In this document: positions 6,207 to 30,833 of the stretch, piece after piece | How positions within the stretch are numbered: the stretch's first letter is position 1 | How the letters are laid out: every line of letters starts with the position of its first letter | Origin: a virus | IMG/VR virus record: IMGVR_UViG_3300048549_001549 | Span: 1 to 35,999 of that record | Length of the DNA stretch: 35,999 nt | Reading direction: 5' to 3' (one strand) | Position numbers and translations under genes: made by a program | The notes under the pieces: model-generated | What the model saw: the letters and a program-made list of their open reading frames with translations, nothing else | Database searches by the model: none | What the model was told of the DNA's origin: nothing

Positions 6207-6797
6207 ATGAAAAAACTACCAGAGTATCTCAAAGAAGAAAAATTTAATCAAAGAAATCTTCAAACACTATTAACTGAAGGAAGTTTGGAAAACAAGATTG
6301 ACACTTTTAATACTATATCCTTTTCAACTGATGAGATAAATGAAGACTCGCAACTAGAAGATTTTCTTTTATTAATTCCAACCGAAAAGAGAAGACCAAT
6401 CCCACCACAGGTTGAGACATACATACCAACACAGGTTACTGATTATGCACAAGATGTAGCAACAAACCCGGACGAAGAGGTTAGTGTAATTGATGAAGTG
6501 GAGGATATACAACAAGAAATGGAAAATATGCTTACATCTGAACAGGCATTACAAGCACAAATAGACGAATTGAGTAACCGATTGGATGACGAGATTGGTA
6601 ACTCTGTTAAATTAAAAGAAGATGCGGCCGAAACATTTACGGCCGCAAAAGATATAATAGTATCACAAAGAATTGCAGCCGGAGAAGGAAATGCACCCAG
6701 TGAATTTTCTGACGTTTTTCCATTTCTACCAAAATCAGCAGAAGAAAGACAAAACGAAGGAGTCGATCCATTTCCTTTTATGGGTGGGTATGAATAG
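6207..6797 (+). CDS. Acidic coiled-coil protein, probable virion or assembly factor
   Basis: A 196-residue acidic protein with no family I recognise. It starts MKKLPEYLKEEKFNQRNLQT and contains LLTEGS near residue 25, resembling a T4 prohead-protease site (L-x-E before G). A coiled coil is likely around residues 95-135 (EDIQQEMENML, ALQAQIDELSNRLDDEI). The C-terminus is Pro/Phe-rich (VDPFPFMGGYE). A good AGGAAG ribosome site precedes the ATG, 2 nt after the previous stop. Lying between two structural genes, it is probably a baseplate or chaperone-like component, but nothing in the sequence proves this. Confidence 0.55.
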   Translation: MKKLPEYLKEEKFNQRNLQTLLTEGSLENKIDTFNTISFSTDEINEDSQLEDFLLLIPTEKRRPIPPQVETYIPTQVTDYAQDVATNPDEEVSVIDEVEDIQQEMENMLTSEQALQAQIDELSNRLDDEIGNSVKLKEDAAETFTAAKDIIVSQRIAAGEGNAPSEFSDVFPFLPKSAEERQNEGVDPFPFMGGYE

Positions 6798-6809
6798 GAA
6801 TAAATAACA

Positions 6810-9800
6810 ATGGTGGATTTTATGAAATATATCCAACAGGTTCCGTCTGATAATAAAAAACTCACACGGGGTTTTAGTGTTGATGAATCAACCTTATCTA
6901 TTGGATTTGAGAATGAACCAACACACTATAACTTTGGTTTATCTCCGAAGGATTCAATTGAATTTAGTGTATTTTCATCAGAGGGCATACGTTTGGCTTG
7001 GAAGGTTGTTGATGATGAACCAAACTTTGAAGTATTAAACCTTGATTATACAAACTTAGATGGAGACAGAATAAGTGGCCAAGCAAGATTGTTTACAAGC
7101 AATTATCCATCCATAGATGGAAATGTAGTAGTATCACCAAGTATTGACGCCAAGTCGGTTGGCATTGACTCTGGTTACTACTATATGCGTTATTCTTTTT
7201 TAAATGATATAGTTGGTTCGAGTGCCAATAAAAGTAAATTGTTAATAAAGGAAATATCAAATTCACGAACAGAAATAAAAGTAATTCCAGAGTGCTTAAA
7301 AACATCTATTCGTGCAGAGGATATATCGTTATCTTTTGATTATATAAATTTCACCACAAAAAAACTACCAGTTTCTCATTTATATAACTACACGGACAAA
7401 CTTCTCAGTGAAGATAAAAATTTATTATCTCAGGAATTTGACACGGAACTGTCAGAAATTATAACTGATTACGAAGACTCAATCGAGTTAACTCTTGAAA
7501 TGCTTGGTACAACTACACGAAAGCAAGTCTTCATAGAAATTGACTCTGTTAGAAAAAGAGTTTTTGAGTTGTATAAGAATACATTAATTTCAGAATATAA
7601 TGAGGTATACACACGAACAGATTTTTATGTTCAGTATATAAATTGTATTAACTATGAAATATCTAAACAAAAACGATTAGCAGATTCAGGTGTTGATCCA
7701 CGTATAATTGATTTATATAAGTCTGTGTTGATCACACTATACGATTCAGATTATTTAAATAGATTGTTCGTAGATAGATTTGAACTTTACTTCAACAATT
7801 ATGTAAATTTTGGTCAGGGTGAGTTGTTCCCAATATTAGGAACACAACTTGCAAATGAAAATATAGGTGATGAAGACAAGCACACACCACTCATTATAAA
7901 ACTATCGGATGCACTTCCTGCAAATATAACGATTGGGTCTAGATTGTATATTTCAAACAAACTATATTCTGACGATGTAGTACAGAAAGTAACTTACTTT
8001 AAAGAAATTAAGTCAAATCTTACAAAGTTGAGAGGACCGAATAGAAGTCAGATTATCAAGAATAACGGCACCAAAGAATATACAAAGGACGAACTTGATA
8101 CTGAGTCTGGGTTAGATGAAATAGATGAATCAACGACGAAGATTTCTACATATTTCAACAAAAATATAAATACAGGAATTACAAGTTTTGAAGAATTTTC
8201 AGACTTTGTAAAGTTCTCTTCGGCAAAAAGACAACTTGATTTGTTTATACAAAGATTTTCTAAGATTTCAAAATTAATAAATGTTATATCTTCATATGAA
8301 TATTCAATCGAGATACTTGCTAAGAAAGTGGAAGATAACTTATTACCGGAAAAAGAAGCAAATAGTTCTATTTCAATATTACAGAAACTAGAACTCAAAG
8401 AAAAACTAAAAGAACTTGACACAGAATTGTTGTCTCTGTCTGAGTATGAGAGATATTTACTTTATACAGATTCACCAAGAGCATATCCAAGGACCGATAA
8501 TGTTTATGTTAGTGGTATAACTGGAAAAAACCGACTTGCAAATGGTAGGTATGAAAAATATTCATTTTTTAACGACAAGAACTCGTTTAAGCATTGGTTG
8601 GGTGACTGGTATCTTTGGTGGGACGCAACTTTATTTGAGTGGGTATTATCGGTCGATGCTTATTCACGAAATGAAACTTTCTTTTCTTTTAAAAGTGAGT
8701 CATACTTTTTTGAAACAGATGTAAGATGGGGAAACCATCTAGGTTTTGACGGAGACGAATTTGTAAAAATATCCAAAGAAACATTAGAATACGGACCCGA
8801 AAAGGGAAAACTTGCACCTGAGTATATTCCAGATGACATATCAAAGTGGTCAACTACAAGCAGAGGATATGCTTGGTATATAGATATGGCAACTGAGGCT
8901 GCTTACTACGACAAAAGCAATGACGATTTCTTGGGTTTAAATATACCTGAATTCTTAATAAGAGATGATCAAAACGAAGATTTCCTAAAATTATTAAGTG
9001 CAGTTGGTACGATTTTTGATGTAATTGACAACTACATTAAGAACATGGGAAATTCAAGAGAAATACGGAACAACCCTGAAAAAGGAATACCAGACGAACT
9101 TGTTTATTATTTTTTAAATTCCTTTGGGATAAATTTCACAGGAAAAAATACCAGAGGTGATGTAGTATCAAAACTTAAAATAAAAGATAAAGAAAGTACG
9201 GAGTATAAACGCAATCAAATATGGAGACGTATTTTAAACAATTTACCCTTGATATTAAAAACAAAAGGAACCCGTGAGTCAATTGAGGCACTTATGCGTT
9301 GCTATGATATACCAGAGCAATTATTTGTAACACGTGAATACGGTGGTGCGTCACTAGAAGACTCTTCATCAAATTTTTCCGAGTTTTCTTTTGACACATA
9401 CGATTATAGTTTATCTATTGAAAATGAAGATGAATATCTTGAAGTGCCCTGGAATCACAATGATTTAAAACCAAAATCAATTGAGTTTAAATTATTTATA
9501 AATTCGGAGCCACAGATCAAAAAAACATCTGCCGAAGACGATACAACAGAAACCTACGCACGTGAAGTTCAAACTATAATTTCAAACGACAATTGGAATT
9601 TTGGAATTATGAGATTTTCTGATTACGATGATGGTTGGTGGAGGTTTTATGTATCGTATCAAATAGAAGGTGAGTCTCATGAAACACATAAACTAATACC
9701 AGATTTAGATAAAAAACCACTTTATATAAAACACTCCGATGGGTACGATGTATTAATTCAGGTTTCAAGAACTTTCCGTCAACTGAAAAGAAAAACTTTG

Positions 9801-12800
9801 CGGATCATAATCAAAAGACATAGTGACGGTGAAATTGTATTAACAGAAACTGCTGATATTATAATCGATGAAAAAATGTTTTTGAATTTTTCAAAGGCCA
9901 AGGACATTTACGTTGGAAACTATTTGGGTAGTAGTTTTAAAGGGCAATTTGATCGTCTGCGTATATATAATGAAGAAATTACAGAGGATGATTTTGAGCA
10001 ACATATTAAATACGGACAATCTTATAGTTTGAGAACAACCGATAAATCCGTTGAAGATACCTTGTTACTTAAAACTAACTTCGACCAACCACATGATATT
10101 TCTCTTGAAACAAATTATAAGTTTGGTTATGGAATTATACCAAACTCTTCGTTAAAAGAATCACACCCAAAATATATAAAATGCTACAATTTTAAAAAGA
10201 CACAATATCCGTTTGAATTTGTAGGTGCATATAAAAAAGAATTTGCAGGATTACCAAACTTCGGAGCCCAAGTTTTTAATAATAAAAAAATAAGAAGAGA
10301 AGAACTAAATTTAAATGCAAATTTAAATCCATTTAATAGAGTAACAAATAAATCCTTGGACCGTGTTGGGGTTGATACAAATAAACTTGGAGTGTTTTTT
10401 GGAAAAAGTGTAACACTTAACGAAGAAATAATAAAGTTTTTTGGTAAAATAAAATTGGGAGATTATATAGGGAATCCGGAGGACTATAACAAACGGACAT
10501 ACAATGAATTAAAAAAACTAAGAAATCTATTTTTCAAACACGGGTTTGGTAAAGTTGACTGGAACAATTACATAAACAGTATCAAAGGATATTTTGACGA
10601 GTCATTTTTTGATAACATAGAAAAGTTAGTACCTGCGAGGAGTATGCTGGTGAGTGGTCTTTTGGTAGAACCACTATTACTTGAAAGACCAAAGGTTAAG
10701 GGAACGGACTTAGACACAAATCTTGAATCAAATGTTGATAGATTTAATATTATAGAATCAACTGAAAAAATAAAACCACTAAAGAATATAAGACTTTCTG
10801 CTAAACACACGAACAAGAATATAGTGGAGTTTGCAAACGCAAAAGTTTACGGACCAAGAAAAACAGATGAGAACGCAATCTGCCTAAATTCGGATATTGC
10901 GTATAAGAATATAAAAGGAAAAACACACAAAACCGAGATGTTTGAGAATATTGATTATGGCAATTTACAAAGTGTTGCGTCCAATTTTGGTCATGTGAGT
11001 ATAGAGGGTACGGATTATCGTGTTGAAAAGGATGAGTTTACACTGAGTCATCACACAAGTTTTACAAACGGTCTTGTAGACTATACAATTGCAAATAAAG
11101 TAAAAATAACAATAAAAATTACTAATGATAACTCTAATCACTTTTCTTCTGCGGAGGGTGAGTTCTTCTCGGGTAAAAACCTAAATGGACAACGTCTTTT
11201 CACAAACAACGCAGAGACTTGGTTCATTTACTTTGAACCTTATATTAATATATGGGTTCTTGTAAACAAAGACCCCCGTACAAGTGCAAATACAAATGAA
11301 ATAATTTCAGATGGTTCTGTTAAGAGAATTTACTGCACAATACAAGGTACGGAATTTCCTACAAATTTCTATATAAACTCCTATACTGATGTAGTAAGAA
11401 CTCTGGTCGGTTCATTCGAGTCGTGGGATGATATGTTTCTAATTTCCGGAGCAACCGGAAAATTACCACTTAACACAAATAGAATTTATCGTGCTACATC
11501 GTCGGTGAACATATTAAACGATAAATTTATTAATTTATCAGGAGAAATACTTGGTGTTGTTGATTGTGAAATAAACGGAGTTTTTGACGGAAAGTATAAT
11601 GAAATTTTAGATGACGGGACCCTTGTAATACACAAAAAAGGAAGTTATGTATTCAGAGGACTGAAGCAAACGATTAAATTTGACGGAACTTTCTCAGGAA
11701 CTTTAAAAAGAGGATTTGTAGGATCAACAGAAACTCAGTCAGACTTTGTAATTCGGAATGGTTATGTAAATGGAAAGAGATACGGTGGGTGTTATTTTTC
11801 TGATAAAAAATTATATGGAAATATAAACGATGTCATTGAAAATGATTTAAGGTATACTGATTTAGATTTAAGTATTTTTGATTCAAATAAGATAAACACC
11901 ACATCTCAAACATTTAAGAATATTAAATTAGTGCCAATTCCTAATAAAATAGAATATTATGTTGACGAGAGTAAATTTGTTGTAAGTAAAAAAGTAAACA
12001 TAGAAAGAAACTCCACCAACCAATTATATAATATTGGATCATTTAGATATAGAAAAACACTTGGTACATATTCGAATTGTTTTTACCACAGAACCAAGGA
12101 TGTTTTTGTTCCTGCTTTATTTCACGAATTTGATATAAAATTAAATACTAAGATAAAAACAAATCAAATAAGAGAGGTAAAAATAATTGGTTATACTGAT
12201 TTGATGGCTGACATTAGAACGCAGGAAAATTTATCGTACAAACGAAAATTTAAAACTGAGGTTATTAAAAATGAAACATATACAATTAGTATGTGTTTTG
12301 ATTTTATATATAAAATGGAAACTAACGATTACGAAGTTAGTCCTATTCTGTATTCCCGTGGTAGAAATCTTAAAAATAATAATTACTATCGCATAACATT
12401 TGATGAATATGGTGATACTATAAGAGTAAAAGAAAATTTCTTTGATAAAGGCTGGGATTCTCTTGACAAAATATATGAAATTGATGATTTTCGATTTTTA
12501 TTACCAAAAGAAGATGTTATGGCTGAGTTTGAAAATACAAATTCGTCACTTTTTTATGTTGAGATTGATGATAAAAACTCAATTGCATTTTTAGCAAACC
12601 ACGACTCGGAAGAAACAAATTCAATTGATTTTCACTCACTTGACTTTGTAAAAAATTCGACTGAAAAAAATATAAAAGGGGAGATTGAAATATTAAATAC
12701 ACGTGATTTATATAATCAAACTGGTAAAATATACGGTGAGCAGGAATTGGGTGTGAGTTATGATACAATTGAAATAAAACATAATAGACATCATCTCATA

Positions 12801-15800
12801 AGTAATAACATAAAGGTTGGTGATACAATTAGACTTGATGTTTATGGAAAAAACAAAACCAAGTATGCGATTCAGACCAACCGAGAACTTACACCAGACG
12901 AAGTGGATGATTCCGAAGCAATAATTTATACAGTAGATACTCTGGATTGTCATGTCACATATGACATCAATGAAAACTTTTTAAGGTATACGGCCGAAAC
13001 ACTTCCATTAAAATATCATTCTTATTTTACACAAGAAAGTCCGTCTAATTACTTTTTAATAATGCCAAAGTCTGAGTATAATGGATTTGAACTAAGTGGG
13101 TATAACGGAAAGTGGAAATCGGCCAATGGAATGTATAAACAAAGTTTTATGCTGAATGATAAATACACATACACAAACATAAACTCAGAGTGGATTGTAT
13201 TTTGGAGCAAAGTCACTCCTAATTGTGAAAAAGAGGGTGTAAACGGTGCGTGGGTTTTGGCAAAAGAAGAAGAGTCGGGATTCACAGACAGAATTCAAAG
13301 CGATTTGGAAACTGATAAAATAAAACTATGGATGTATGGATTTGTTCGTGGAGAATTTGCATCTGACGTTGAATACACAACCAACCCGACAATTAATGTA
13401 GATACATTCAGTTCAGACTTTGGTGGGGGTGCTGAAGAATTTTTACTTAAACAAGAAGCATCTGTTCTACATACAAAGGATCTGTGCTCAGACGAAGATT
13501 ATGTAAAAAACAAAATAAAAGATAGCAATAAGAATGTGGATACCTCATTTGTTATTATTCCGAATAAAGAGGCTTTTAGATTTGCAGAGAAATACGGAAA
13601 GAATACATTGAGTGTAAAGGATCAAATACTTTCCTGGAGTTTAAATATTAAGAGTGTAGAAAGCAAGTTACCTGCACGTGGTTTATACGACAAAGTAAAA
13701 CCAATGAAAGAAGTTGATGTACAAGTTGAAGTGGAATATAATCAGAACTTTGATAGAGTAGTTCCGTATGTAAGGTTGATAGGAGCAGATGTTAGTTCAA
13801 CTCAATATAGACTGGTAGAAGGTGACTACTTTCTTACCACACAAGAAATAAATAATTATCCTGTTTATAGAAATCCACACGGATTTTTGATGAAACGAGA
13901 TAGATACATTGATGAGGAAACTGGTAATGCAAATTATTTGTGGGTAATCGCACAGGACGCACAACCTCTGACCACTAAAATTGAAGATCTAACCAATAAA
14001 AACCGACTTGTTTTTATTTCATATAATGGAACCTGTGCAAGTGATGATTTTAATTTTAGAGTTGGTTATGATATGAATCCAAACGTAGACACCACCCGTG
14101 ACAGAAATGATATGCTGGCAGATTCTTTTAGGGATGCCGTATTACTAGATGATCAGGAAGTAACGGTTACGTGGGGTTATGACAGAAACGAACAGGCCTG
14201 CTCTACTTGTGAGGATATAGCAACACCTGATTTTAAAATCACAGTAAGTCCAGATAATTTATATACAACATACGCAGGGAAAAAGAAGTTTATTACTATT
14301 TACCAAGGAGGAGTTGATGCAGAAGTTGGTATCAATGAATTAAATCCAAATACATTTGCAAAGCAATTCGGTGGATTATATAGTCACATCAATGGAAGTT
14401 ATTGTGATTCTGAAATTTGCTATCATCAAAAAAATGGTGGGTCGGTTATGAAGAAATTACCTGCCGGGTGGGTAATAGAACCGACTGTAGTTGGAAGTGG
14501 TAACAAGTTTACGACATATATATCAAGTAATCATGCAGATGTAAAATCAAAGGGGTTGATATTCCAACATCCAAAATATGGAATGTATAAGTCAGAAAGT
14601 GGAGAGTTGGCATTTATTTATTACGAAAAAAATGAATATTCGGACATCAAAATATGCATTGATTCTGATAATGAAAATTTAAGATCAAAATTTTCTAAAA
14701 CAACTTATGAGCAAAATAATAGAGTTGTGTATCAAAATGAAAATGGTTGGTTGGTATTCTATAATATAGAAGAAATTTCCGGTGACGAATATTGGTGCAT
14801 AAGTGATACTTTGTCTGATAGAAATGTAAAATACAAAGCAGATATTAGATGGAAAAATGAACTTAATTTTAAAGAAGGGGACCGTCATTATGATGAGGAG
14901 TTTGGTGTCTATTACCATAAGACTACAAATATAGACTATAATGAAAAAAATGCCATTGTAGTAAATATGAAGATTAATCTTGATGAAGAAAACCCAACTA
15001 ATATATTGAACTTGGATAGATTTGATGTTAATACATTTAGTTATCGTTTAACATACGATTCCACATTTAGACAAGAATCAACTGCATTGGAACTTCTACC
15101 AGTATTATCACGGGTTGAAAATAAGTATATATCGGAACTACCTGTGTCAATAAATTATGATCCTGAAACATTTTACTTAGAGTATCCTAATTTGGTTGAT
15201 ATTCATGTTTTGTCCGATGGGTCGTATGAATATAATGAAACAGGTAATACTAATTTAACACTTGCATTGAATTCGTTTGGAACAACTAAAAACTTTGATA
15301 TGAAGATTAATATTGAAAATACATTTGGTCATGTCAAAGTTGATTCAAATGATATATTCTCTGCGGACTTCAAACGGAACACCACAGATCAAGAAAGAGA
15401 GGACGGATATATTGACATAAACAAACTGTATGAAAAGTATTATATTGACGAAGTAAACTATACACTTGAAGTTGGTGTAAAAACGAGAAGAGAACCAATA
15501 GTAGTAGAAAAAAATATAAGAAAAATAAATCAACAAAGCAAATTTGAAGAATTATTTTTGGATGATTCTGATGAAGATGAACGTGAAATTAAGATTACAT
15601 TTGATGAAGACCTTAGTTATAAGGTAAATAAAAATTATGTTTTAACTGACATTACAAAATTAAAAGTAAACAATGATATTGTATCAAGAAATATTTCAAA
15701 AGACCACCTATCATATAAAAGAAGATTTAAAAGAACCACGACACAAAATAATGTTTCGACAACTATTTCACAAGAAGGAATACAAGATTTTACATCACCA

Positions 15801-16076
15801 ATAACAAGAACCCGTAGAGTATTTCCAAGAACTGACTTTAATAGTGGTTCGTTTGATTCATTTTGGTTTATTGATGATGTACCTGTTACTAACCAGACCT
15901 ACGAGCAAAAACCTGTAATCGTTAGAAAGGGTGTGTATGAACTACCAACTGATGTTCTTGATAAACTTGAATTTTATTATTCATTTAATGATTCGGATGT
16001 AGAATTCGTAGAGGCATTTCCAACTCATACTCCGTCACCAACTAAAACAGAAACCAAAACACCAACCGATGACTAA
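6810..16076 (+). CDS. Giant (3088-residue) baseplate/tail-fibre protein with LamG-like domain and repeated beta modules
   Basis: The largest gene here, a quarter of the window. Residues 1-560 are unlike anything I can name securely and include a helical region (~200-320). Around 800-835, NNLPLILKTKGTRESIEAL (K819-G820-T821-R822) resembles the 'KGT' motif of P2 gpI-type and related baseplate proteins. Residues ~865-1073 form a LamG/concanavalin-like sandwich ending in DRLRIYNEEITEDDFEQ. At least six small modules with the pattern G-x-Y...N...W-x-I/L...W-V-L recur near 567-630, 1448-1495, 2097-2156, 2334-2390, 2517-2564 and 2631-2670. The C-terminus is Thr/Pro-rich (THTPSPTKTETKTPTDD). The start is the ATG at 6810; 6822 is an in-frame alternative. 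The last 8 nt overlap the next gene. Likely a wedge-anchored adsorption or fibre scaffold; the exact T4 counterpart (gp7-like?) is inference. Confidence 0.75.
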   Translation: MVDFMKYIQQVPSDNKKLTRGFSVDESTLSIGFENEPTHYNFGLSPKDSIEFSVFSSEGIRLAWKVVDDEPNFEVLNLDYTNLDGDRISGQARLFTSNYPSIDGNVVVSPSIDAKSVGIDSGYYYMRYSFLNDIVGSSANKSKLLIKEISNSRTEIKVIPECLKTSIRAEDISLSFDYINFTTKKLPVSHLYNYTDKLLSEDKNLLSQEFDTELSEIITDYEDSIELTLEMLGTTTRKQVFIEIDSVRKRVFELYKNTLISEYNEVYTRTDFYVQYINCINYEISKQKRLADSGVDPRIIDLYKSVLITLYDSDYLNRLFVDRFELYFNNYVNFGQGELFPILGTQLANENIGDEDKHTPLIIKLSDALPANITIGSRLYISNKLYSDDVVQKVTYFKEIKSNLTKLRGPNRSQIIKNNGTKEYTKDELDTESGLDEIDESTTKISTYFNKNINTGITSFEEFSDFVKFSSAKRQLDLFIQRFSKISKLINVISSYEYSIEILAKKVEDNLLPEKEANSSISILQKLELKEKLKELDTELLSLSEYERYLLYTDSPRAYPRTDNVYVSGITGKNRLANGRYEKYSFFNDKNSFKHWLGDWYLWWDATLFEWVLSVDAYSRNETFFSFKSESYFFETDVRWGNHLGFDGDEFVKISKETLEYGPEKGKLAPEYIPDDISKWSTTSRGYAWYIDMATEAAYYDKSNDDFLGLNIPEFLIRDDQNEDFLKLLSAVGTIFDVIDNYIKNMGNSREIRNNPEKGIPDELVYYFLNSFGINFTGKNTRGDVVSKLKIKDKESTEYKRNQIWRRILNNLPLILKTKGTRESIEALMRCYDIPEQLFVTREYGGASLEDSSSNFSEFSFDTYDYSLSIENEDEYLEVPWNHNDLKPKSIEFKLFINSEPQIKKTSAEDDTTETYAREVQTIISNDNWNFGIMRFSDYDDGWWRFYVSYQIEGESHETHKLIPDLDKKPLYIKHSDGYDVLIQVSRTFRQLKRKTLRIIIKRHSDGEIVLTETADIIIDEKMFLNFSKAKDIYVGNYLGSSFKGQFDRLRIYNEEITEDDFEQHIKYGQSYSLRTTDKSVEDTLLLKTNFDQPHDISLETNYKFGYGIIPNSSLKESHPKYIKCYNFKKTQYPFEFVGAYKKEFAGLPNFGAQVFNNKKIRREELNLNANLNPFNRVTNKSLDRVGVDTNKLGVFFGKSVTLNEEIIKFFGKIKLGDYIGNPEDYNKRTYNELKKLRNLFFKHGFGKVDWNNYINSIKGYFDESFFDNIEKLVPARSMLVSGLLVEPLLLERPKVKGTDLDTNLESNVDRFNIIESTEKIKPLKNIRLSAKHTNKNIVEFANAKVYGPRKTDENAICLNSDIAYKNIKGKTHKTEMFENIDYGNLQSVASNFGHVSIEGTDYRVEKDEFTLSHHTSFTNGLVDYTIANKVKITIKITNDNSNHFSSAEGEFFSGKNLNGQRLFTNNAETWFIYFEPYINIWVLVNKDPRTSANTNEIISDGSVKRIYCTIQGTEFPTNFYINSYTDVVRTLVGSFESWDDMFLISGATGKLPLNTNRIYRATSSVNILNDKFINLSGEILGVVDCEINGVFDGKYNEILDDGTLVIHKKGSYVFRGLKQTIKFDGTFSGTLKRGFVGSTETQSDFVIRNGYVNGKRYGGCYFSDKKLYGNINDVIENDLRYTDLDLSIFDSNKINTTSQTFKNIKLVPIPNKIEYYVDESKFVVSKKVNIERNSTNQLYNIGSFRYRKTLGTYSNCFYHRTKDVFVPALFHEFDIKLNTKIKTNQIREVKIIGYTDLMADIRTQENLSYKRKFKTEVIKNETYTISMCFDFIYKMETNDYEVSPILYSRGRNLKNNNYYRITFDEYGDTIRVKENFFDKGWDSLDKIYEIDDFRFLLPKEDVMAEFENTNSSLFYVEIDDKNSIAFLANHDSEETNSIDFHSLDFVKNSTEKNIKGEIEILNTRDLYNQTGKIYGEQELGVSYDTIEIKHNRHHLISNNIKVGDTIRLDVYGKNKTKYAIQTNRELTPDEVDDSEAIIYTVDTLDCHVTYDINENFLRYTAETLPLKYHSYFTQESPSNYFLIMPKSEYNGFELSGYNGKWKSANGMYKQSFMLNDKYTYTNINSEWIVFWSKVTPNCEKEGVNGAWVLAKEEESGFTDRIQSDLETDKIKLWMYGFVRGEFASDVEYTTNPTINVDTFSSDFGGGAEEFLLKQEASVLHTKDLCSDEDYVKNKIKDSNKNVDTSFVIIPNKEAFRFAEKYGKNTLSVKDQILSWSLNIKSVESKLPARGLYDKVKPMKEVDVQVEVEYNQNFDRVVPYVRLIGADVSSTQYRLVEGDYFLTTQEINNYPVYRNPHGFLMKRDRYIDEETGNANYLWVIAQDAQPLTTKIEDLTNKNRLVFISYNGTCASDDFNFRVGYDMNPNVDTTRDRNDMLADSFRDAVLLDDQEVTVTWGYDRNEQACSTCEDIATPDFKITVSPDNLYTTYAGKKKFITIYQGGVDAEVGINELNPNTFAKQFGGLYSHINGSYCDSEICYHQKNGGSVMKKLPAGWVIEPTVVGSGNKFTTYISSNHADVKSKGLIFQHPKYGMYKSESGELAFIYYEKNEYSDIKICIDSDNENLRSKFSKTTYEQNNRVVYQNENGWLVFYNIEEISGDEYWCISDTLSDRNVKYKADIRWKNELNFKEGDRHYDEEFGVYYHKTTNIDYNEKNAIVVNMKINLDEENPTNILNLDRFDVNTFSYRLTYDSTFRQESTALELLPVLSRVENKYISELPVSINYDPETFYLEYPNLVDIHVLSDGSYEYNETGNTNLTLALNSFGTTKNFDMKINIENTFGHVKVDSNDIFSADFKRNTTDQEREDGYIDINKLYEKYYIDEVNYTLEVGVKTRREPIVVEKNIRKINQQSKFEELFLDDSDEDEREIKITFDEDLSYKVNKNYVLTDITKLKVNNDIVSRNISKDHLSYKRRFKRTTTQNNVSTTISQEGIQDFTSPITRTRRVFPRTDFNSGSFDSFWFIDDVPVTNQTYEQKPVIVRKGVYELPTDVLDKLEFYYSFNDSDVEFVEAFPTHTPSPTKTETKTPTDD

Positions 16077-24079: not shown

Positions 24080-24607
24080 ATGCAAGATATAAAAGTATCT
24101 CTTGGACTAGACATTAGTTCAACTACAATAGGTTATTGTTATTCATCTTCTGAACAGAAAATAATTCAAGCAGGATATATTTCTGTTCATAAAGAAATCT
24201 CCATAAGAAACAAAGCACACAAGGTTGCAGACGAATTGAAAAAAATTCAACTGCAACCTTTTGTTGTTATTGTGGAAGATTCACTTAGTGGATTTGGTGG
24301 GGGAAGAACGAGTCAACAGACTATTGTAAAATTAGCAAAGTGTAATGCCATAATAAGTTATGTTGTAGAAGAATTGTATAATTTAGAAGTACAACACATA
24401 AATGTATCTACAATGCGTAAAGGGGTATTTGGAAAAAGCAGAGAAAAAGGATTAGATAGTAAAACATTTGTAAAGTGCAACCTTGAAAATATGCTTGATT
24501 TATCCGACTTTATTCACTATAATTCTAAGAATAATTATGATAAAAAAAACTACGATATGCTTGATGCTGTAGTCGCATCTTTGTATCATTGGTATTCTTT
24601 GAAATAG
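24080..24607 (+). CDS. ruvC: RuvC-like Holliday junction resolvase
   Basis: RNase-H-fold endonuclease expected to cut four-way junctions and branched replicative DNA before packaging. It has 175 residues, the typical RuvC length. The four acidic catalytic positions are present: D11 in GLDISSTTIGY, E66 in VIVEDSLSGF, and D159/D162 in YDMLDAVVAS. T4 uses the unrelated endonuclease VII (gp49) for this job, so RuvC-like enzymes are a known alternative in other phages. It begins the DNA-metabolism block after a 40-nt gap containing GATAAATA (24035-24042). Its TAG stop overlaps the GTG start of the primase by 1 nt. Confidence 0.88.
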   Translation: MQDIKVSLGLDISSTTIGYCYSSSEQKIIQAGYISVHKEISIRNKAHKVADELKKIQLQPFVVIVEDSLSGFGGGRTSQQTIVKLAKCNAIISYVVEELYNLEVQHINVSTMRKGVFGKSREKGLDSKTFVKCNLENMLDLSDFIHYNSKNNYDKKNYDMLDAVVASLYHWYSLK

Positions 24608-25536
24608 TGGGCATCTCTGAACAAAAACTTCTCAATCTTCTACAAAAAGTATTAGGAACTGGAAAAATCGTCTCTAAAGACGAGGCTATGTTCATGTGTC
24701 CATTTTCACATCATAGAAAACCTAAACTTGCTATTAATTTATCTACGCAACGTTGGCAAAGTTGGATTGATACAAATGCAAAAGGTAGATCAATTTATGG
24801 TTTATTCAAAAAGATGAATGTTGCTCCACAATATCTTACGGAATTATCTAGAATCGTAAAGATACCAAAAAGCACACAACAAACCGAAGAAGAAGAGTTA
24901 AAAGTTCACCTTCCTTATGAATTTACATCATTGCAGTATGACACCGAAAAAACAAGAGCATCAAAGGCTGCGTTTAATTATCTAAGACAAAGAAACATAT
25001 TTTCTTATGATATAGAAAGATATAATATTGGATATTGTGAAAGTGGTGATTATGCGAATAGAATCATAGTACCATCATATGATTGCGACAATAATTTAAA
25101 TTATTTTATAGCAAGAGATTTTACAGGAACTGCGTATTTACGATACAAAAACCCACCGGTCAGTAAAGATGTTGTGGTGTTTGAGAATCAAATTGATTTC
25201 TCCGAACCACTTATTTTTTGTGAAGGTGTATTTGATGCTATGGCAATTCGTCGAAACGCAATTCCACTATTGGGGAAGAATATTCCAAGTAAACTAAAAA
25301 CAAAATTAGTTGAACATGGAGTTTCTGAAATATGTATTGTTCTTGATAACGATGCATTTAAAAACGCATTACAAATTTCCGAAACAATGATGAACGAGAA
25401 TGTTCGTGTCAAATTAGTAAAAATGGGAAATGACGATGCGGCGGACATTGGGTTTAATAAAATAATTCATAAAATTAGAAATGCAGAACTTCTTGATTTT
25501 AGTGAATTGATGAAGCAAAAGTTATGCATGAACTAA
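24607..25536 (+). CDS. DnaG-type DNA primase (Toprim) with degenerate zinc-binding motif
   Basis: Makes RNA primers for lagging-strand synthesis, functionally like T4 gp61. I chose GTG at 24607, which overlaps the resolvase stop by 1 nt, over the upstream TTG at 24589; the protein is then 309 residues. An N-terminal segment aligns with the DnaG zinc-ribbon position (C31-PF-S34-H35-H36, then QRWQSWIDTNAKG at 48-60), but the second Cys pair is absent. Toprim motifs are intact: E206 in EGVFDAMA and D247-x-D249 in LDNDA. LRQRNI and RIIVPSYD are typical primase core segments. The stop overlaps the next gene by 13 nt. It probably partners a replicative helicase encoded elsewhere. Confidence 0.85.
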   Translation: MGISEQKLLNLLQKVLGTGKIVSKDEAMFMCPFSHHRKPKLAINLSTQRWQSWIDTNAKGRSIYGLFKKMNVAPQYLTELSRIVKIPKSTQQTEEEELKVHLPYEFTSLQYDTEKTRASKAAFNYLRQRNIFSYDIERYNIGYCESGDYANRIIVPSYDCDNNLNYFIARDFTGTAYLRYKNPPVSKDVVVFENQIDFSEPLIFCEGVFDAMAIRRNAIPLLGKNIPSKLKTKLVEHGVSEICIVLDNDAFKNALQISETMMNENVRVKLVKMGNDDAADIGFNKIIHKIRNAELLDFSELMKQKLCMN

Positions 25537-26228
25537 AAACAAATTTAAAGAATGTTGAAAAAGTATATCATCTCGCAGACATTCATATAAGAAACGTAAA
25601 AAGACACAACGAATATTCATTGGTATTTGAAAACTTTTACAAACAAGTAAAAGAAGATAATCTTGATAACGCAATTATTTTTATCGGTGGAGACATTGCT
25701 CATGCCAAAACAGAAATGAGTCCAGAGTTGATTCATCAAATATCTTCATTTTTAAGAGAGTGTTCTAAACTTCACCCAACAATTGTAATTGCAGGAAATC
25801 ACGATTGCAATTTGAATAATCCTGATCGTCTTGATGTGCTATCACCTATACTTGATATGATGGACGATGACAATTTGTTTTATTTAAAAGATACTGGTGT
25901 ATATAAATTAGGTGATGTTGCTATTGGAGTTTTTGGGATATTTGAAGATCCTGTTGAATATATCAAAGGTTCTGATATAAAAGATGATTCTATTAAAACC
26001 AAGATTGCAGTATATCACGGTGCGGTAAAAAGAAGTAGAACCGATATAGGATATGTAGTTATGGGTGGTGATATTAATCTACCTATGTTTAATGGATATG
26101 ATATTGTTATGCTTGGGGATATACACAAGTATCAAGTTTTACAAGAGTATCAAACTGAGCATAGATTTATCCCTGAGAGTAAGATAGATGAATATAAACT
26201 AGAAGGCTGGTGCGTTAGTGATGACTAA
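25524..26228 (+). CDS. gp47: Mre11/SbcD-like (gp47) nuclease, N-terminal phosphoesterase part only
   Basis: Metal-dependent exonuclease subunit that works with the Rad50/gp46 ATPase in recombination-dependent replication and end processing. The 234 residues hold all the phosphoesterase motifs in order: D19-x-H21 (LADIHIR), D57 (GGDIAH), G91-N92-H93-D94, H165 (YHGAV) and GDIH (198-201, Asp where many relatives have the first His). The protein stops soon after (LEGWCVSDD) and lacks the expected next block, YSGS..QQNHGE, found instead at the start of the gene at 27143. T4 gp47 is about 340 residues, so this is a truncated or split protein. Its stop overlaps the glycosyltransferase start by 8 nt. 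Confidence 0.88.
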   Translation: MHELKTNLKNVEKVYHLADIHIRNVKRHNEYSLVFENFYKQVKEDNLDNAIIFIGGDIAHAKTEMSPELIHQISSFLRECSKLHPTIVIAGNHDCNLNNPDRLDVLSPILDMMDDDNLFYLKDTGVYKLGDVAIGVFGIFEDPVEYIKGSDIKDDSIKTKIAVYHGAVKRSRTDIGYVVMGGDINLPMFNGYDIVMLGDIHKYQVLQEYQTEHRFIPESKIDEYKLEGWCVSDD

Positions 26229-27153
26229 TATACTCATAAGATGTAGAAACATACAAATCGGTGATACTTTGTTTGCGAGTAGTGTTGCAAAAAAACTGAA
26301 AGAAGAAAACCCAAACTGCGTAGTTCATTATGACATTTCTTTTTTACAACCAATTGAGTTGATGATGGCCAATCCATATATTGATGGGGTGTTTTACAAG
26401 GAATCTGCTGATATCCAATATGATGTAGTTTACAATCTAATTGATACGGATTTTGTAATTGATCCATATATATCGGCCGTTTCTCAACTTCAAAGGTTGT
26501 GCAATATTAAAAACTTCGACGATACCTTTGAAATTTATACAAACCCACATCTTGATTATTCTATAAAGAAAAGTATTCAAGAATTAAAAAATATAAATGA
26601 ATTAGAAGATGATGTAATTTTAGTAGGATACCAAGTAGATTGGGAACGAAAAAGTTATTTGTTTACAGAAGATGAATATGAAAAAGCAGAAGGTGCGGAA
26701 GATGGATCAGGATATGGAAGTGGCAAACGAAATATTTATGATATAATAAATCCACTAGAGGTTAACTCAGATGTTTTGTTGCTTGCACTTGGTATAGAGG
26801 AAAAAATTTCCAAGCACTATCCCGAGATAAACTCTACAAATAAATTTTCTTTTACTGCAAGTTTAATTAAAAATTGCGACTATGTAATTGGTGCTGAAGG
26901 GTGTATTACAAATATGTCATCGGCAATCGGGACAAAAACTATTATTACAACTGATTACATTCATCAGATGTTCGGTCCCAAGGGAATTAATTGGTTAAAG
27001 CAAGGAAGAGATTTTTCTAACTTAGAAAAAAGAACTCCGTTTTTAGGACCTAATGTGTATTTTCCAAATAAAGGTCATGTGCATCTCAATCCATATCTTA
27101 CTGATTACGAGGTAGGGGAAGAAATTTTAGAAATTGTAACGAATGGAAGATAA
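26221..27153 (+). CDS. GT9-like (heptosyltransferase-type) glycosyltransferase inserted between gp47 and gp46 parts
   Basis: A 310-residue probable glycosyltransferase. The start is the ATG at 26221 (a GTG lies one codon upstream). The N-terminus, ILIRCRNIQIGDTLFASSVA, matches the GT9 opening with the key Gly-Asp (G14-D15), followed by NPYIDGVFY. The C-terminal donor-site region CDYVIGAEGCITNMSSAIGT matches the '.D.vIg.(D)sG..H.a.AlG' block, with E-G-C replacing the common D-S-G. An acidic/Gly-rich insert (EGAEDGSGYGSGK) lies in the middle. It overlaps the upstream nuclease gene by 8 nt and the downstream gene by 11 nt, and all three are in different frames. The substrate (LPS, DNA base or protein) cannot be told. 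GT-B fold family assignment is likely; specificity is unknown. Confidence 0.75.
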   Translation: MTNILIRCRNIQIGDTLFASSVAKKLKEENPNCVVHYDISFLQPIELMMANPYIDGVFYKESADIQYDVVYNLIDTDFVIDPYISAVSQLQRLCNIKNFDDTFEIYTNPHLDYSIKKSIQELKNINELEDDVILVGYQVDWERKSYLFTEDEYEKAEGAEDGSGYGSGKRNIYDIINPLEVNSDVLLLALGIEEKISKHYPEINSTNKFSFTASLIKNCDYVIGAEGCITNMSSAIGTKTIITTDYIHQMFGPKGINWLKQGRDFSNLEKRTPFLGPNVYFPNKGHVHLNPYLTDYEVGEEILEIVTNGR

Positions 27154-29743
27154 AGAAACATACATAAAAGTAACAAGACATAATCCCGAAAAACCGGTTG
27201 TGGTTTATTCGGGTAGTATGATACAACAAAACCACGGAGAGTTGCCATCTGGACATGGTTATGTTTTATGGGATTTGGAAAATAGAACACACCAACAATA
27301 TAATGTACATAACGAATATGGTTATTATACGGTTACGGTTCGTGATGGAAAGTGTGTTAGTGATTTATCTAAACTACCAAACAAAGCAAGATTGCGTGTA
27401 AAGGTGTATAATACAACTGCAACCGAGACAAAGGAGATTATTGCAGAAATACGAAAGCAAACGAGTATAACAGATTTAAATGTTACACGATGCGATGCAA
27501 TTTCCGAAGCAAAAAAATTTGATCGAGACAACAAATTTGATTTCGGTGATATATCACTTGTACAGATTCAAAATGATTTAATTGAAGATTATCTAACTCG
27601 TAATTTTGTGGTTGATGAAGAGCAAATAAAAACTGCTCTTGATATTAACAAAGAAGTAAATGAAAAGTTGGTAATTAAAGAGATACTCAAAAATTGTATT
27701 TGGAAACCAAAGAAGTTTGAGTTTGGAAATATGTTTAGTTACGGAGATGGAAATGTAATTGACTTTTCAAATATGAAAAGTGTTATGGGATTGTTTGCAT
27801 CTAACGCAAGTGGTAAAAGTAGTGTAATGAGTGCATTGAGTTTTTGTTTATTTGACAAATGTGATCGTGCATTCAAAGCAGCCCATGTACTAAACACACA
27901 AACAGAATCTTTTTATTGTAAATTAAATTTTGAAATATCAGGAGTAAACTACTTCATAGATAGAACTGCATCCACAAAAAAGAATGGAGATGTTACCGTT
28001 GTTGTAGATTTTTGGAAACAAGACGAAGATGGTCAGACCGTTTCTTTAAACGGAGAGCAACGTGCAGGAACAAATGCAATTATTCGTGATCATGTGGGTT
28101 CTTATGATGACTTTGTATTAACTACTTTGAGTTTACAAAATAACAATGCCATTTTTATAGATAAAAGTCAGAGTGAAAGAAAAGACTTACTTGCTCAATT
28201 TATGGGAATTGATATATTTGATCAATTACACTCAACAGCATCTGAAGATATAAAAGAAATAAATGCTTTATTAAAAAGATTTAATCGTGAAAATTTCGAT
28301 GAAACATTGGTAGAGGTAAACGAAAAACTAAGCAGTATATCTGAACAATATTCAGAACAGGAAAGTAAAACTAATGTTGCACTACTAGAGCAAAAACGCA
28401 TAAACAAAATTCTTTCAGATAAAAGTTCAAAATTTAAGAATTGTTCGTTTAATGAAGATAGTTCTGACATAGATAATTTAGAATTTAATAAAAAGAACTT
28501 AGAAGATAGACTTATAGTTGCGGAAGAACAAAGAGATGTAGAGTCTGCACGAAAAAAAGAACTTGTAAATAAACGAGGAGACTTATCAAAAAGAATTTCT
28601 GAGTTATCTGGTGTAGAAGAAAATTATGTAGAGGTTCTTAAAATAAGAGAAGAGGTTGTGGTTGTTGAGAAAGACTTAGCAGTTTTAAGAACTTCGGTTA
28701 ATGCAAAACTTGATAAATTAAAACATTATGATGATCACGAATATGATCCGAAGTGTTCATATTGTGTAAACAATTCTAAAAACTTAATTGAAAGTGCAGA
28801 GCAAACTAAGCAAGAACTTGATAAAGACAAAGCAGCCGCAGACGAACTCGTAAAACAAAAAGCAATATACACAGAGCAATTAAGTGAATTTCAGAATGTA
28901 GAGAGTGAATATGAAGAATTAAAAGATTTAAGTAACACTATGACACAAACTTCATTTGAAATAAACGAAGCAGATTCAAAAGTTCTTGCTCTATCGAGTA
29001 TGATAGAGTCACTTGAAAAAGATATAATAATTAATAACAAGAACATTGATTCGTATCATGAGTGTAAGGACATAATTGAATTTAATAAAAAACTACAAGT
29101 AGAAGTAGATGATCTTCAAGATAAGTTATTATCTGTAAACAACATAGCAAATGAAGAAAGTGAAAAACTTCAAACTCTTTTTGGTGAAGTAAAAATTGTT
29201 GAAAAAGAACATGAAGATATTCTTGCGTCAATAGAAGAAGCAAAAAGCTACGAAAGAAAAAAACGAGGATATGAACTTTATCTTGATTCTGTAAAACGAG
29301 ACGGTATATCATATGAACTTATTTCTAAAACTATTCCAAGTATAGAAAGTGAAGTAAATAATATACTTTCTCAAATCGTTGATTTCGGTATGAATCTTGA
29401 AATGGATGGAAAACATATTTACTCAAAGATTACTTACGAGGATCGTCATTGGCCATTAGAAATGTGTAGTGGTATGGAACGATTCATAAGCAGTATCGCA
29501 ATGCGGGTAGCACTTATCAATGTAAGTAGTTTACCACGTTCTAATTTCCTTGTTATTGACGAAGGGTGGGGTTCGTTGGACGGAGACAACATAAGTAGTG
29601 TATTTAATCTGTTTACCTATTTAAAGGGGCAGTTTGAGTTCATCATGGTTATTAGTCATTTAGACGTAATGAGAGATATGGTGGACGAAATTATTGAAAT
29701 TCAAAAAGAAGGTTCATTTAGTAAGATAAATTACGGAGCATAA
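27143..29743 (+). CDS. gp46: Fusion of gp47 C-terminal part with Rad50/SbcC-like (gp46) ATPase
   Basis: An 866-residue protein. Residues 18-33 (PVVVYSGSMIQQNHGE) and the following beta region are what normally follows the phosphoesterase core of gp47/SbcD, so roughly the first 190 residues are the missing end of the nuclease. The ATPase follows: Walker A GLFASNASGKSS (216-227), long coiled coils, a CxxC zinc hook (C538-SY-C541) at the apex, signature SGME (776-779), Walker B with D806-E807 and D-loop SLD, and H-loop H839. It would form an Mre11-Rad50-like complex with the gene at 25524. The ATG overlaps the glycosyltransferase end by 11 nt. A single ancestral nuclease-ATPase fusion is inferred. 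Confidence 0.9.
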   Translation: MEDKETYIKVTRHNPEKPVVVYSGSMIQQNHGELPSGHGYVLWDLENRTHQQYNVHNEYGYYTVTVRDGKCVSDLSKLPNKARLRVKVYNTTATETKEIIAEIRKQTSITDLNVTRCDAISEAKKFDRDNKFDFGDISLVQIQNDLIEDYLTRNFVVDEEQIKTALDINKEVNEKLVIKEILKNCIWKPKKFEFGNMFSYGDGNVIDFSNMKSVMGLFASNASGKSSVMSALSFCLFDKCDRAFKAAHVLNTQTESFYCKLNFEISGVNYFIDRTASTKKNGDVTVVVDFWKQDEDGQTVSLNGEQRAGTNAIIRDHVGSYDDFVLTTLSLQNNNAIFIDKSQSERKDLLAQFMGIDIFDQLHSTASEDIKEINALLKRFNRENFDETLVEVNEKLSSISEQYSEQESKTNVALLEQKRINKILSDKSSKFKNCSFNEDSSDIDNLEFNKKNLEDRLIVAEEQRDVESARKKELVNKRGDLSKRISELSGVEENYVEVLKIREEVVVVEKDLAVLRTSVNAKLDKLKHYDDHEYDPKCSYCVNNSKNLIESAEQTKQELDKDKAAADELVKQKAIYTEQLSEFQNVESEYEELKDLSNTMTQTSFEINEADSKVLALSSMIESLEKDIIINNKNIDSYHECKDIIEFNKKLQVEVDDLQDKLLSVNNIANEESEKLQTLFGEVKIVEKEHEDILASIEEAKSYERKKRGYELYLDSVKRDGISYELISKTIPSIESEVNNILSQIVDFGMNLEMDGKHIYSKITYEDRHWPLEMCSGMERFISSIAMRVALINVSSLPRSNFLVIDEGWGSLDGDNISSVFNLFTYLKGQFEFIMVISHLDVMRDMVDEIIEIQKEGSFSKINYGA

Positions 29744-29758
29744 AACATATTTAGATAT

Positions 29759-29767
29759 ATATTTATT
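29759..29767 (+). promoter_or_regulatory. ATATTTATT box, copy 5
   Basis: Lies in the 43-nt gap between the Rad50-like gene and the zeta-like kinase, ending 19 nt before the kinase ATG. The kinase start lacks a clear Shine-Dalgarno sequence. Confidence 0.35.
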
Positions 29768-29786
29768 ATGTACCTGAAATGTATTT

Positions 29787-30833
29787 ATGAGTAATTCCAA
29801 AGAAAACCAAGAAGTCCAAGAAGAAAGTCTTATCAAGGCTGGTCTTCGCAAAGGATATTTTACACTCGTTGAGGGAGTATACGATCCTGGTATTCTTAAA
29901 GCAGTATTTTTAGCAGGAGGTCCTGGTTCTGGTAAATCAGCTGTCGTGGATACTGTTTTTAATACGACACCTGAAGCAAAGTCATTGACATCATCTGGAT
30001 TAAAAATCGTAAATAGTGATAGTTCCTTTGAGTATTTATTAAAAAAAGCAGGTCATAGTTTAGATTTGGGTTCGTTGGATGATGAAGTTTTTCAAAAAAT
30101 AACAAGTGACGATCCAAATTCAGTTAGGTCACGTGCTAAAAACATTATGCTTAAACAATACGAAAATTACAAGGATGGTAGGTTGGGTGTAATTATTGAT
30201 GGAACTGGTGATGATTATGCTAAGATATCAAAACAAAAGAAAGAGTTGGAAAAACTTGGATATGATTGTTATATGGTATTTGTTAATACAACACTTGAAG
30301 TTGCACAACAAAGAAATGCGTTTCGTGCAAGAAAACTTCCACGTAAAATTGTGGATGTTATATGGAAAGATGTTCAAAAGAATATGGGGAAATTCCAAAG
30401 TTCATTCAAGCAGAATTTCACGATCATTGATAACTCAGAAGATTTAAGAAGCAAAACAAAACCAGGAAAACTTAATCTTGCTCCTTTTATATTAAAAGCA
30501 ACTGCAAGATTTATCGGAAAACCAATTCGCAATCCTATTGGTAAACAATGGATTACTTTGATGATGAAACACGATAAAATGAGTAAGAGTGGTGATACAC
30601 GAAATCGTATGAACGAAGAACTCGATATGGTTTCAATGGAAGATGTAGTTCTACCTATGGATTTGGAAAGACATTTAACTCGTTCTATATTTGTAATTAA
30701 AAAATTTAAATTAAATGAAAGACGGAATCTTGCAATTATATCAAGACTGGTAGAAAGTTTAGAGTTGGATAGAAACCAACTTAACAAATATTTCCACCAA
30801 ATTAGAACATTAAAGTTCAAGGGAGAAAAATGA
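29787..30833 (+). CDS. Zeta-toxin-like P-loop kinase
   Basis: A 348-residue P-loop protein. Walker A is GGPGSGKS (44-51), followed by VNSDSSFEYLL (a zeta-like Ser-Asp position) and IDGTGDDY. The stretch LEVAQQRNAFRARKLPRKIV is the Arg-rich lid/sensor region of zeta-type and polynucleotide-kinase-like enzymes. The C-terminal ~130 residues are unrecognised. Zeta toxins phosphorylate UDP-amino sugars; many phage relatives have unknown substrates, so the name describes the fold only. No epsilon-type antitoxin is seen beside it. No clear Shine-Dalgarno sequence; the start is 19 nt after an ATATTTATT box. The stop overlaps the next start (ATGA). Confidence 0.7.
   Translation: MSNSKENQEVQEESLIKAGLRKGYFTLVEGVYDPGILKAVFLAGGPGSGKSAVVDTVFNTTPEAKSLTSSGLKIVNSDSSFEYLLKKAGHSLDLGSLDDEVFQKITSDDPNSVRSRAKNIMLKQYENYKDGRLGVIIDGTGDDYAKISKQKKELEKLGYDCYMVFVNTTLEVAQQRNAFRARKLPRKIVDVIWKDVQKNMGKFQSSFKQNFTIIDNSEDLRSKTKPGKLNLAPFILKATARFIGKPIRNPIGKQWITLMMKHDKMSKSGDTRNRMNEELDMVSMEDVVLPMDLERHLTRSIFVIKKFKLNERRNLAIISRLVESLELDRNQLNKYFHQIRTLKFKGEK

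Follow-up and report, generated by a model that had tools for sequence, protein, structure and literature searches.

Can a phage nuclease gene be cut inside its nuclease domain by a gene of a different kind and still provide a functional enzyme? This question is raised by a locus in the viral record IMGVR_UViG_3300048549_001549, which belongs to an uncultured group of phages and of which positions 1-35,999 were analysed (35,999 nucleotides (nt), hereafter the window). In the window, a Mre11/SbcD-like sequence is interrupted by a glycosyltransferase-like gene and resumes behind it at the start of a protein that continues into a Rad50/SbcC-like ATPase. With a probability of roughly three in four, we propose that a phage Mre11-Rad50 fusion gene has turned into a gene in pieces, of which the two halves (N-half and C-half) reassemble while the glycosyltransferase gene is carried as cargo. 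The parts of the locus, with protein lengths in amino acids (aa), are:

25524..26228, + strand: Mre11/SbcD-like N-half with the metallophosphoesterase core, 234 aa (Pfam Metallophos 9.2e-9; SbcD family phrog_100 7.8e-18)
26145..26225, + strand: added N-half tail, EYQTEHRFIPESKIDEYKLEGWCVSDD, the first of two linker parts, missing in fused relatives with a short linker
26221..27153, + strand: glycosyltransferase-like gene, GT-B fold (open reading frame (ORF) 26218/26221-27153), with IGD and G.EGC motifs that are invariant in the alignment
26221..26228, + strand: start/stop overlap of 8 nt between N-half and glycosyltransferase gene, the ATG at 26221 being taken as start
27143..27153, + strand: start/stop overlap of 11 nt between glycosyltransferase gene and C-half
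27143..29743, + strand: C-half, 866 aa, last Mre11 strands and capping region fused to the Rad50/SbcC ATPase with coiled coil
27143..27205, + strand: added C-half head, MEDKETYIKVTRHNPEKPVVV, the second of the two linker parts
27206..27241, + strand: YSGSMIQQNHGE block, the Mre11 segment expected shortly past GDIH, C-half residues 22-33
27797..27823, + strand: ASNASGKSS, Rad50 Walker A region, read from sequence
28754..28765, + strand: CSYC, zinc-hook type CxxC within the coiled coil, read from sequence

Two constrained halves of an Mre11-Rad50 sequence

The three ORFs lie in three different frames, and the distance from 26228 to 27143 is 915 nt. This layout, including both overlaps, is as the initial annotation had described it, and the order N-half, glycosyltransferase gene, C-half recurs in all 37 contigs in which both neighbours are visible (33, and 4 from a further search; another search gave these 37 again). 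Chance or an assembly error is thus ruled out. One more carrier, contig L008, starts within the glycosyltransferase gene.

The motifs ADIH, GGDIAH, GNHD, YHG and GDIH, which we take to be the metal motifs of the phosphoesterase, are all five located within the N-half, which ends 27 residues past GDIHKYQVLQ. The remainder of Mre11 is found in the C-half. In nine of ten related large records (G001-G010, 67-170 kb, possibly fragments) the start of the C-half matches positions 219-384 of the SbcD family phrog_100, where the closing strands and the cap are expected. In the window, residues 93-864 of the C-half match the SbcC family phrog_77 (3.7e-43). The Rad50 motifs ASNASGKSS, CSGME, LVIDEGWGSLD and CSYC, presumably Walker A, signature, Walker B and zinc hook, can be read from the sequence, while the Pfam families SMC_N and SbcC_Walker_B match below their cut-offs. 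Judged by these matches and motifs, the downstream protein is a complete Rad50-type ATPase that follows the C-terminal region of Mre11.

Both halves are strongly conserved. The N-half has 234 aa in 29/29 distinct sequences, and the alignment columns that are invariant among 62 fused relatives are kept in all 29 sequences split by the glycosyltransferase gene (30/30 on the N-side, 12/12 on the C-side); in six splits that are empty or carry an endonuclease-like gene, 28/30 and 12/12 of them are kept in all. Raw ratios of nonsynonymous to synonymous differences (pN/pS) were 0.16 for the N-half body, 0.22 for its tail, 0.27 for the head, 0.12 for the Mre11 part of the C-half, 0.18 for Rad50 and 0.36 for the glycosyltransferase, values that lean high because synonymous sites are close to saturation (24 of the 29 sequences were used here and for substitution rates, five with a truncated C-half being excluded). 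Purifying selection acts on both halves, on tail and head, and on the glycosyltransferase.

A second, intact Mre11 was not seen in any of the ten related records, which may be fragments: the metallophosphoesterase family PF00149 matches once per record and always in the N-half, and a search with the N-half as query gives one match per record, again at the N-half (10/10 in both cases). Matches to the family phrog_100 are likewise confined to the two halves, although at lower sensitivity: the N-half was detected in 5/10 and the C-half in 9/10 records, and because of these misses the check was redone with PF00149 and the N-half.

Uninterrupted relatives are common, as detailed below, and all 42 invariant residues are kept in the halves. 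Reassembly as two polypeptides is therefore the best reading of the sequences, and the conclusion that a former fusion now stands in two pieces is, on this comparison, a strong one.

Four states of one site

The search with the window C-half yielded 78 viral loci from the best 80 of 151 relatives, and in most of the more distant ones (~ 42% identity) a single open frame spans the site. For the relatives of locus L073, an empty split, the best 80 of 497 were used, so that inserts of other kinds at this site may be overlooked. Over all searches 249 loci were classified, copies of one contig counted, into 179 fused, 62 split and 8 partial ones. After identical copies, short rows, loci without both matches and rows with unreadable motifs (L062, L063, L088, L118, L147 and L155) were dropped, 132 distinct sequence sets were left. 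Among them, the gene is fused in 98 sets with a short linker and in 2 with a long one, split by the glycosyltransferase gene in 26, split and empty in 5, and split by another gene in 1. The initial annotation had supposed a nuclease-ATPase fusion and asked for relatives with an uninterrupted gene at this site; 100 of the 132 sets are of this kind. Microcystis phage Mel-JY01 carries the fused form as one annotated coding sequence. In fused genes with a short linker YxGS begins 45-66 nt after the start of GDIH. Bacterial contigs contributed five loci with relatives, and L279, the one read by the motif script, is fused with a short linker. The opposite possibility named at the outset was a gp47-type protein that naturally ends at this point, followed by a YSGS block of unrelated origin. 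Solved SbcD/Mre11 chains, however, align across the point to the unsplit relative L156, and among the relatives an Mre11 that ends here is confined to other split lineages.

One of these lineages is L002 (LR756508.1, 484 kb), a distant, uncultured huge phage; here an ORF encoding 305 aa (locus positions 6701-7618) interrupts the gene at the matching point. The product matches a TnsA-like N-terminal nuclease domain (5.8e-6) and the HNH endonuclease family phrog_1271 (3.5e-15). We regard it as a putative endonuclease-like protein, with homing as a candidate property only. A search for further relatives with an endonuclease gave only partial, weak matches to the L002 protein in other records. In the empty splits L073 (which shares its contig with L087), L089-L092 and the truncated L062, no gene lies between the parts; their junctions are 4-nt overlaps in L073, L091 and L092, a 14-nt overlap in L090 and a 51-nt gap in L089. 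By comparison, all 33 assessable contigs with a C-half of at least 78% identity carry the glycosyltransferase gene, and no empty relative was seen within this clade.

In an unrooted tree, for which the 132 rows were thinned to 64, the glycosyltransferase clade (17 rows, support 100) has a fused clade as its neighbour (support 96), and the five empty-split rows form a clade of their own (support 100) among fused rows. Topology was tested on 45 rows, leaving out L004 (a long branch) and 18 near neighbours. A single clade of all splits was rejected (approximately unbiased test, p-AU 8.7e-96), as was a clade of glycosyltransferase and empty splits (1.4e-72); a clade joining the glycosyltransferase splits and L002 was not rejected (p-AU 0.346). 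The simplest count gives three changes between fused and split on the tree. The splits thus probably stem from two or more separate breaks at this site, provided that no genes have re-fused. The glycosyltransferase clade and L002 may share one fission, in which case the glycosyltransferase gene could stand where an endonuclease gene once was. The fused clade next to the glycosyltransferase clade is found on contigs of jumbo size (L209, L215 and L223, 276-289 kb).

A predicted linker lobe at the break

Split forms have added sequence at the cut, divided between a tail of the N-half and a head of the C-half. Tails like that of the window are also present in L002 and in some empty splits. The L002 tail was compared with tails from the glycosyltransferase clade (two) and from the empty clade (three), and each time 0/2000 shuffles were as good; the window tail against that of L090 gave 4/2000, and L064 against the L156 linker 10/2000. 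Two unsplit relatives, L156 (linker at 4866-5045) and L242, contain a long linker at the same place. An AlphaFold2 model of L156 (62 sequences) has a mean predicted local distance difference test score (pLDDT) of 87.4, with block means of 72-83 in the linker, and corresponds to SbcD/Mre11 (7dog, Z 25.1 over 277 residues; aligned to SbcD across 16-354). Its linker contains a strand (215-219), two helices (220-228 and 230-233) and two further strands (235-238 and 246-251), and is thus predicted to form a small beta-alpha-beta-beta lobe of Mre11. Going by position alone, the loop 239-245 of this model is where the split forms would be cut. We infer that tail and head may rebuild the lobe across two chains and in this way help to hold them together. 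Short tails are reportedly what assembles the split reductase of phage Aeh1. Database searches with the lobe returned little: nothing in Pfam except one match at 0.073, and weak matches in PHROGs to families of 68-72 positions (0.0077, 0.013 and 0.3), that of the L156 linker being to a family of 68 positions with unknown function.

The glycosyltransferase-like insert

The AlphaFold2 model of the insert (28 sequences) is a two-domain GT-B fold with a pLDDT of 76.9 and a predicted template modelling score of 0.78; residues 160-164, 193-206 and 247-273 are below 50 in pLDDT. The closest solved structure is 3tov (Z 18.2, root-mean-square deviation 3.8, 253 residues; Foldseek 1e-8), followed by heptosyltransferase II (Z 16.4) and WaaC (16.0). 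The other GT9 and NDH-PSI chains span 14.9-16.4, with plant NDH-PSI subunits close behind the GT9 chains (15.5-15.9), and 2-epimerases rank next (11.1). The insert thus shares its fold with GT9 heptosyltransferases (WaaC, WaaF) and 3tov over 238-253 residues at Z 16-18, but identity is only 9-14%, and EGC.TN replaces the sugar-nucleotide motif, which in GT9 enzymes is of the D.G.H type. Evidence at the level of sequence is weak. The values are 0.0058 for DUF354 and an E value of 0.19 for 3tov. A weak profile match aligns the IGD stretch with LGD of 3tov. Pfam Glyco_transf_9 has no match in 28/28 insert members at E ≤ 0.1, and PF01075 was found in 0/10 related records at 0.1 (control positive in 6/14). 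The earlier label of a GT9-like protein consequently holds for the fold but not for the sequence: because there is no Pfam GT9 match, we call the insert GT9-like and do not class it as a member of the family. The invariant residues D15 and E226 of the alignment only suggest that sugar transfer takes place.

The insert is present as a single copy in 10/10 related records and was not found in 20/20 records of fused relatives, although the same alignment detects 10/10 carriers. As to its origin, no relatives were found in the phages collection at E ≤ 0.01, none were confirmed in genome_contigs, and PHROGs gave weak, scattered matches only. The insert changes faster than its flanks (median pN 0.25 vs 0.11). 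Its nonsynonymous divergence (dN) tracks that of the N-half (Spearman 0.63) but not of the C-half (0.10), the two halves correlating with each other at 0.23 (276 pairs, 24 sequences), which indicates recombination between insert and C-half. In the close pair L001/L006 synonymous divergence (dS) is 1.40 in the insert vs 0.49 and 0.59 in the flanks; the insert was therefore probably exchanged here without its flanks. The identity profile of L006/L029 shows a trough of 0.66-0.85 over the insert between flanks near 0.9. Eight pairs were profiled in all: one has a clean trough, three are low over the insert and also over the N-half, and four have essentially none. From these patterns the insert reads as cargo that is open to swapping. 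Its G+C content, overall and at third codon positions, equals that of the neighbouring genes, so that it does not look like a recent arrival.

Matches to GT2-family glycosyltransferases occur in 8/10 of the related records, in 7 of them above the cut-off. Because these phages carry other sugar transferases, a role in glycan modification unrelated to DNA would be the more ordinary one for the insert.

Proposed explanation and its alternatives

The start codon of the glycosyltransferase gene, assigned by script as the codon closest to the 8-nt point, overlaps the N-half by exactly 8 nt in 28/28 distinct genes (27 ATG, 1 GTG), while the second overlap is 11 nt in 22/28, 14 nt in 4/28 and 8 nt in 2/28. 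At both junctions the start codon is superimposed on the stop codon and the surrounding bases are variable. Since, in addition, no intron family was matched, termination-reinitiation is the simplest mode of expression, by which ribosomes would make three proteins from one message. In this lineage the gene is cut inside Mre11, in the extra linker between GDIH and the YxGS strand. In the explanation that we favour, the N-half with all metal motifs and the C-half with closing strands, cap and Rad50 would reassemble into a working Mre11-Rad50, perhaps aided by the linker lobe, which is shared out between the two halves. Such reassembly in trans is plausible by analogy, because the split NrdA of phage Aeh1, interrupted by the homing endonuclease gene mobE, is fully functional and the split polymerase parts 43A and 43B of phage 25 co-purify, with polymerase activity, according to a review of T4 mobile elements (PMC2988022). 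The glycosyltransferase would be cargo that probably acts on glycans of phage or host, without a mechanistic link to the nuclease. The fission point may have been used more than once and was perhaps first opened by a mobile endonuclease such as the one still in LR756508.1; in the glycosyltransferase clade, the glycosyltransferase gene would hold the place of the former endonuclease. We tentatively extend this to a more general proposal, which we put somewhat below even odds: the Mre11 loop may be a recurrent fission port, with a small linker lobe that tolerates breaks and clamps both polypeptides. The break could then be occupied by unrelated cargo (a mobile endonuclease in one lineage, a glycosyltransferase in another) or, as in a third lineage, by none, and recombination could exchange the cargo without loss of nuclease activity.

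Several points weigh against parts of this explanation. The window tail shows no significant similarity to the L156 linker (555/2000 shuffles as good), and for this reason the cut is placed in the L156 model largely by position; against two of the three empty-clade tails the window tail likewise gave 320 and 382/2000. The endonuclease-first origin depends on one lineage, L002, and the C-terminal part of its insert also matches the head-completion/head-closure family phrog_218 (2.3e-10) and cyanophage gp4-type proteins. The empty splits show that the gene can split without any insert. In the tree, the join between the glycosyltransferase clade and its fused neighbours brings together two long branches, L002 itself is on a long branch, and the clades in the topology tests were named after the tree had been seen. 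Re-fusions are possible, since the trees are unrooted, and the uninterrupted gene is taken as ancestral by parsimony and because canonical SbcD is uninterrupted here.

The empty splits also bear on a different history, in which a point mutation in a long linker split the gene first, the glycosyltransferase gene came in later between what were by then two ordinary genes, and no endonuclease took part in this lineage. Three of the empty splits have an overlap of the 4-nt ATGA type (L073, L091 and L092), and fused genes with a long linker exist (L156, L242); both observations speak for such a history. However, the glycosyltransferase and empty clades do not form one clade, and the glycosyltransferase clade, with the gene in 33/33 assessable contigs, has no empty relative; we consider this history possible but doubtful. 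Far less probable is a joint action of glycosyltransferase and nuclease, for example on glycosylated phage DNA, with the gene order reflecting this tie, as the initial annotation had speculated. The arrangement is constant in 37/37 contigs, the insert is a single copy in the ten large records, translation is probably coupled through the overlaps, and a P-loop kinase/zeta-toxin-like gene lies 3' of the locus. Against the tie, the same split also occurs empty (L073, L089-L092) or with an endonuclease-like insert (L002), the glycosyltransferase evolves faster than its flanks and was probably swapped alone in L001/L006, and its top-scoring fold neighbours are mostly GT9 heptosyltransferases. Nor did a link to modified DNA find support: the thymidylate synthase/hydroxymethylase family PF00303 was found in 0/10 related records, possibly fragments, with the control positive in 9/14. 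A search for Tet_JBP gave 0/10 related records, but with the control silent too it is uninformative.

The remaining two alternatives concern the gene products. The halves could be rejoined before or during synthesis by an intron, an intein or double ribosomal frameshifting through the glycosyltransferase gene, and both junctions indeed shift by +1 frame in all 28 distinct genes. Yet no Rfam family was found at E ≤ 1 in 25000-30000, hence no match to a group I or group II intron, and Pfam searches with the three proteins at E ≤ 1 gave no intein family. The start-over-stop overlaps have variable bases and no conserved slippery site, and a read-through product would hold a whole glycosyltransferase within Mre11. 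We judge rejoining to be very improbable. That the nuclease is decaying and non-functional might be suspected from the interruption itself, but it is hardly credible with a pN/pS of 0.12-0.27 in all Mre11-Rad50 parts, an N-half of constant length in 29/29 sequences and all 42 invariants kept.

Comparison with known systems

Phage genes in pieces are mostly explained as scars of homing endonucleases. Besides nrdA/mobE of Aeh1, the review cited above describes T4 gene 60/39 with mobA and the split gene 43 of Aeromonas phages 25 and 44RR, as well as free-standing endonuclease genes with start/stop overlaps (PMC2988022). As in these cases, a gene of replication or repair is cut here in a critical region by an inserted gene, and two polypeptides would have to reassemble. 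The gene is split and both parts are retained and constrained, whereas the insert in the window is not a homing endonuclease. In contrast to the Aeh1 nrdA case as given there, the cut gene is Mre11-Rad50, the insert is glycosyltransferase-like, the same point is broken in separate lineages, either empty or bearing an endonuclease-like gene, and the halves have an added linker.

In domains and motifs the protein resembles T4 gp47/gp46 and bacterial SbcD/SbcC. These pairs divide at the border between Mre11 and Rad50 and not inside Mre11. Fusions of Mre11 and Rad50, with Mre11 first and Rad50 second, are described from viruses, plasmids and some cells, and as abundant in aquatic viruses, in a published survey (PMC3175470). 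The relatives found here are likewise one protein with Mre11 before Rad50, but in the window a further cut divides the nuclease domain of the fusion. The main text of that survey describes fusions and does not contain the word "split". A literature search over titles and abstract openings of part of the matches returned no split Mre11-Rad50 and no glycosyltransferase splitting a phage gene. New in the present case are the gene that is cut, the cargo, and the probably repeated use of one fission point: all assessable members of the clade have an ordinary-looking enzyme gene within a core gene of DNA repair, and separate lineages are broken at the same loop. With this locus one could test by what means a gene outlasts fission, whether a docking lobe preceded the break or came with it, and how cargo gains a stable place in phage genomes. 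If our explanation is true, structural work would also gain an Mre11 nuclease domain that naturally consists of two pieces.

Genomic surroundings

The gene directly 5' of the N-half encodes a DNA primase:

24589..25536, + strand: DNA primase (phrog_47 9.3e-33), overlapping the N-half by 13 nt

By eye, primase-like ORFs stand at the matching position in L002 and L073. A RuvC-like resolvase (24080-24607; phrog_159 3.8e-9, phrog_827 4.2e-9) lies ahead of the primase and Mre11 in the window. The P-loop kinase/zeta-toxin-like gene 3' of the locus is located at 29787-30833 (Zeta_toxin 1.5e-10, AAA_33 2.7e-7, phrog_12810 7.6e-38). Because positions 3017-4990 match a baseplate wedge family (phrog_10646 7.7e-19), the window likely derives from a phage with a contractile tail. 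A single ORF of 3088 aa occupies positions 6810-16076.

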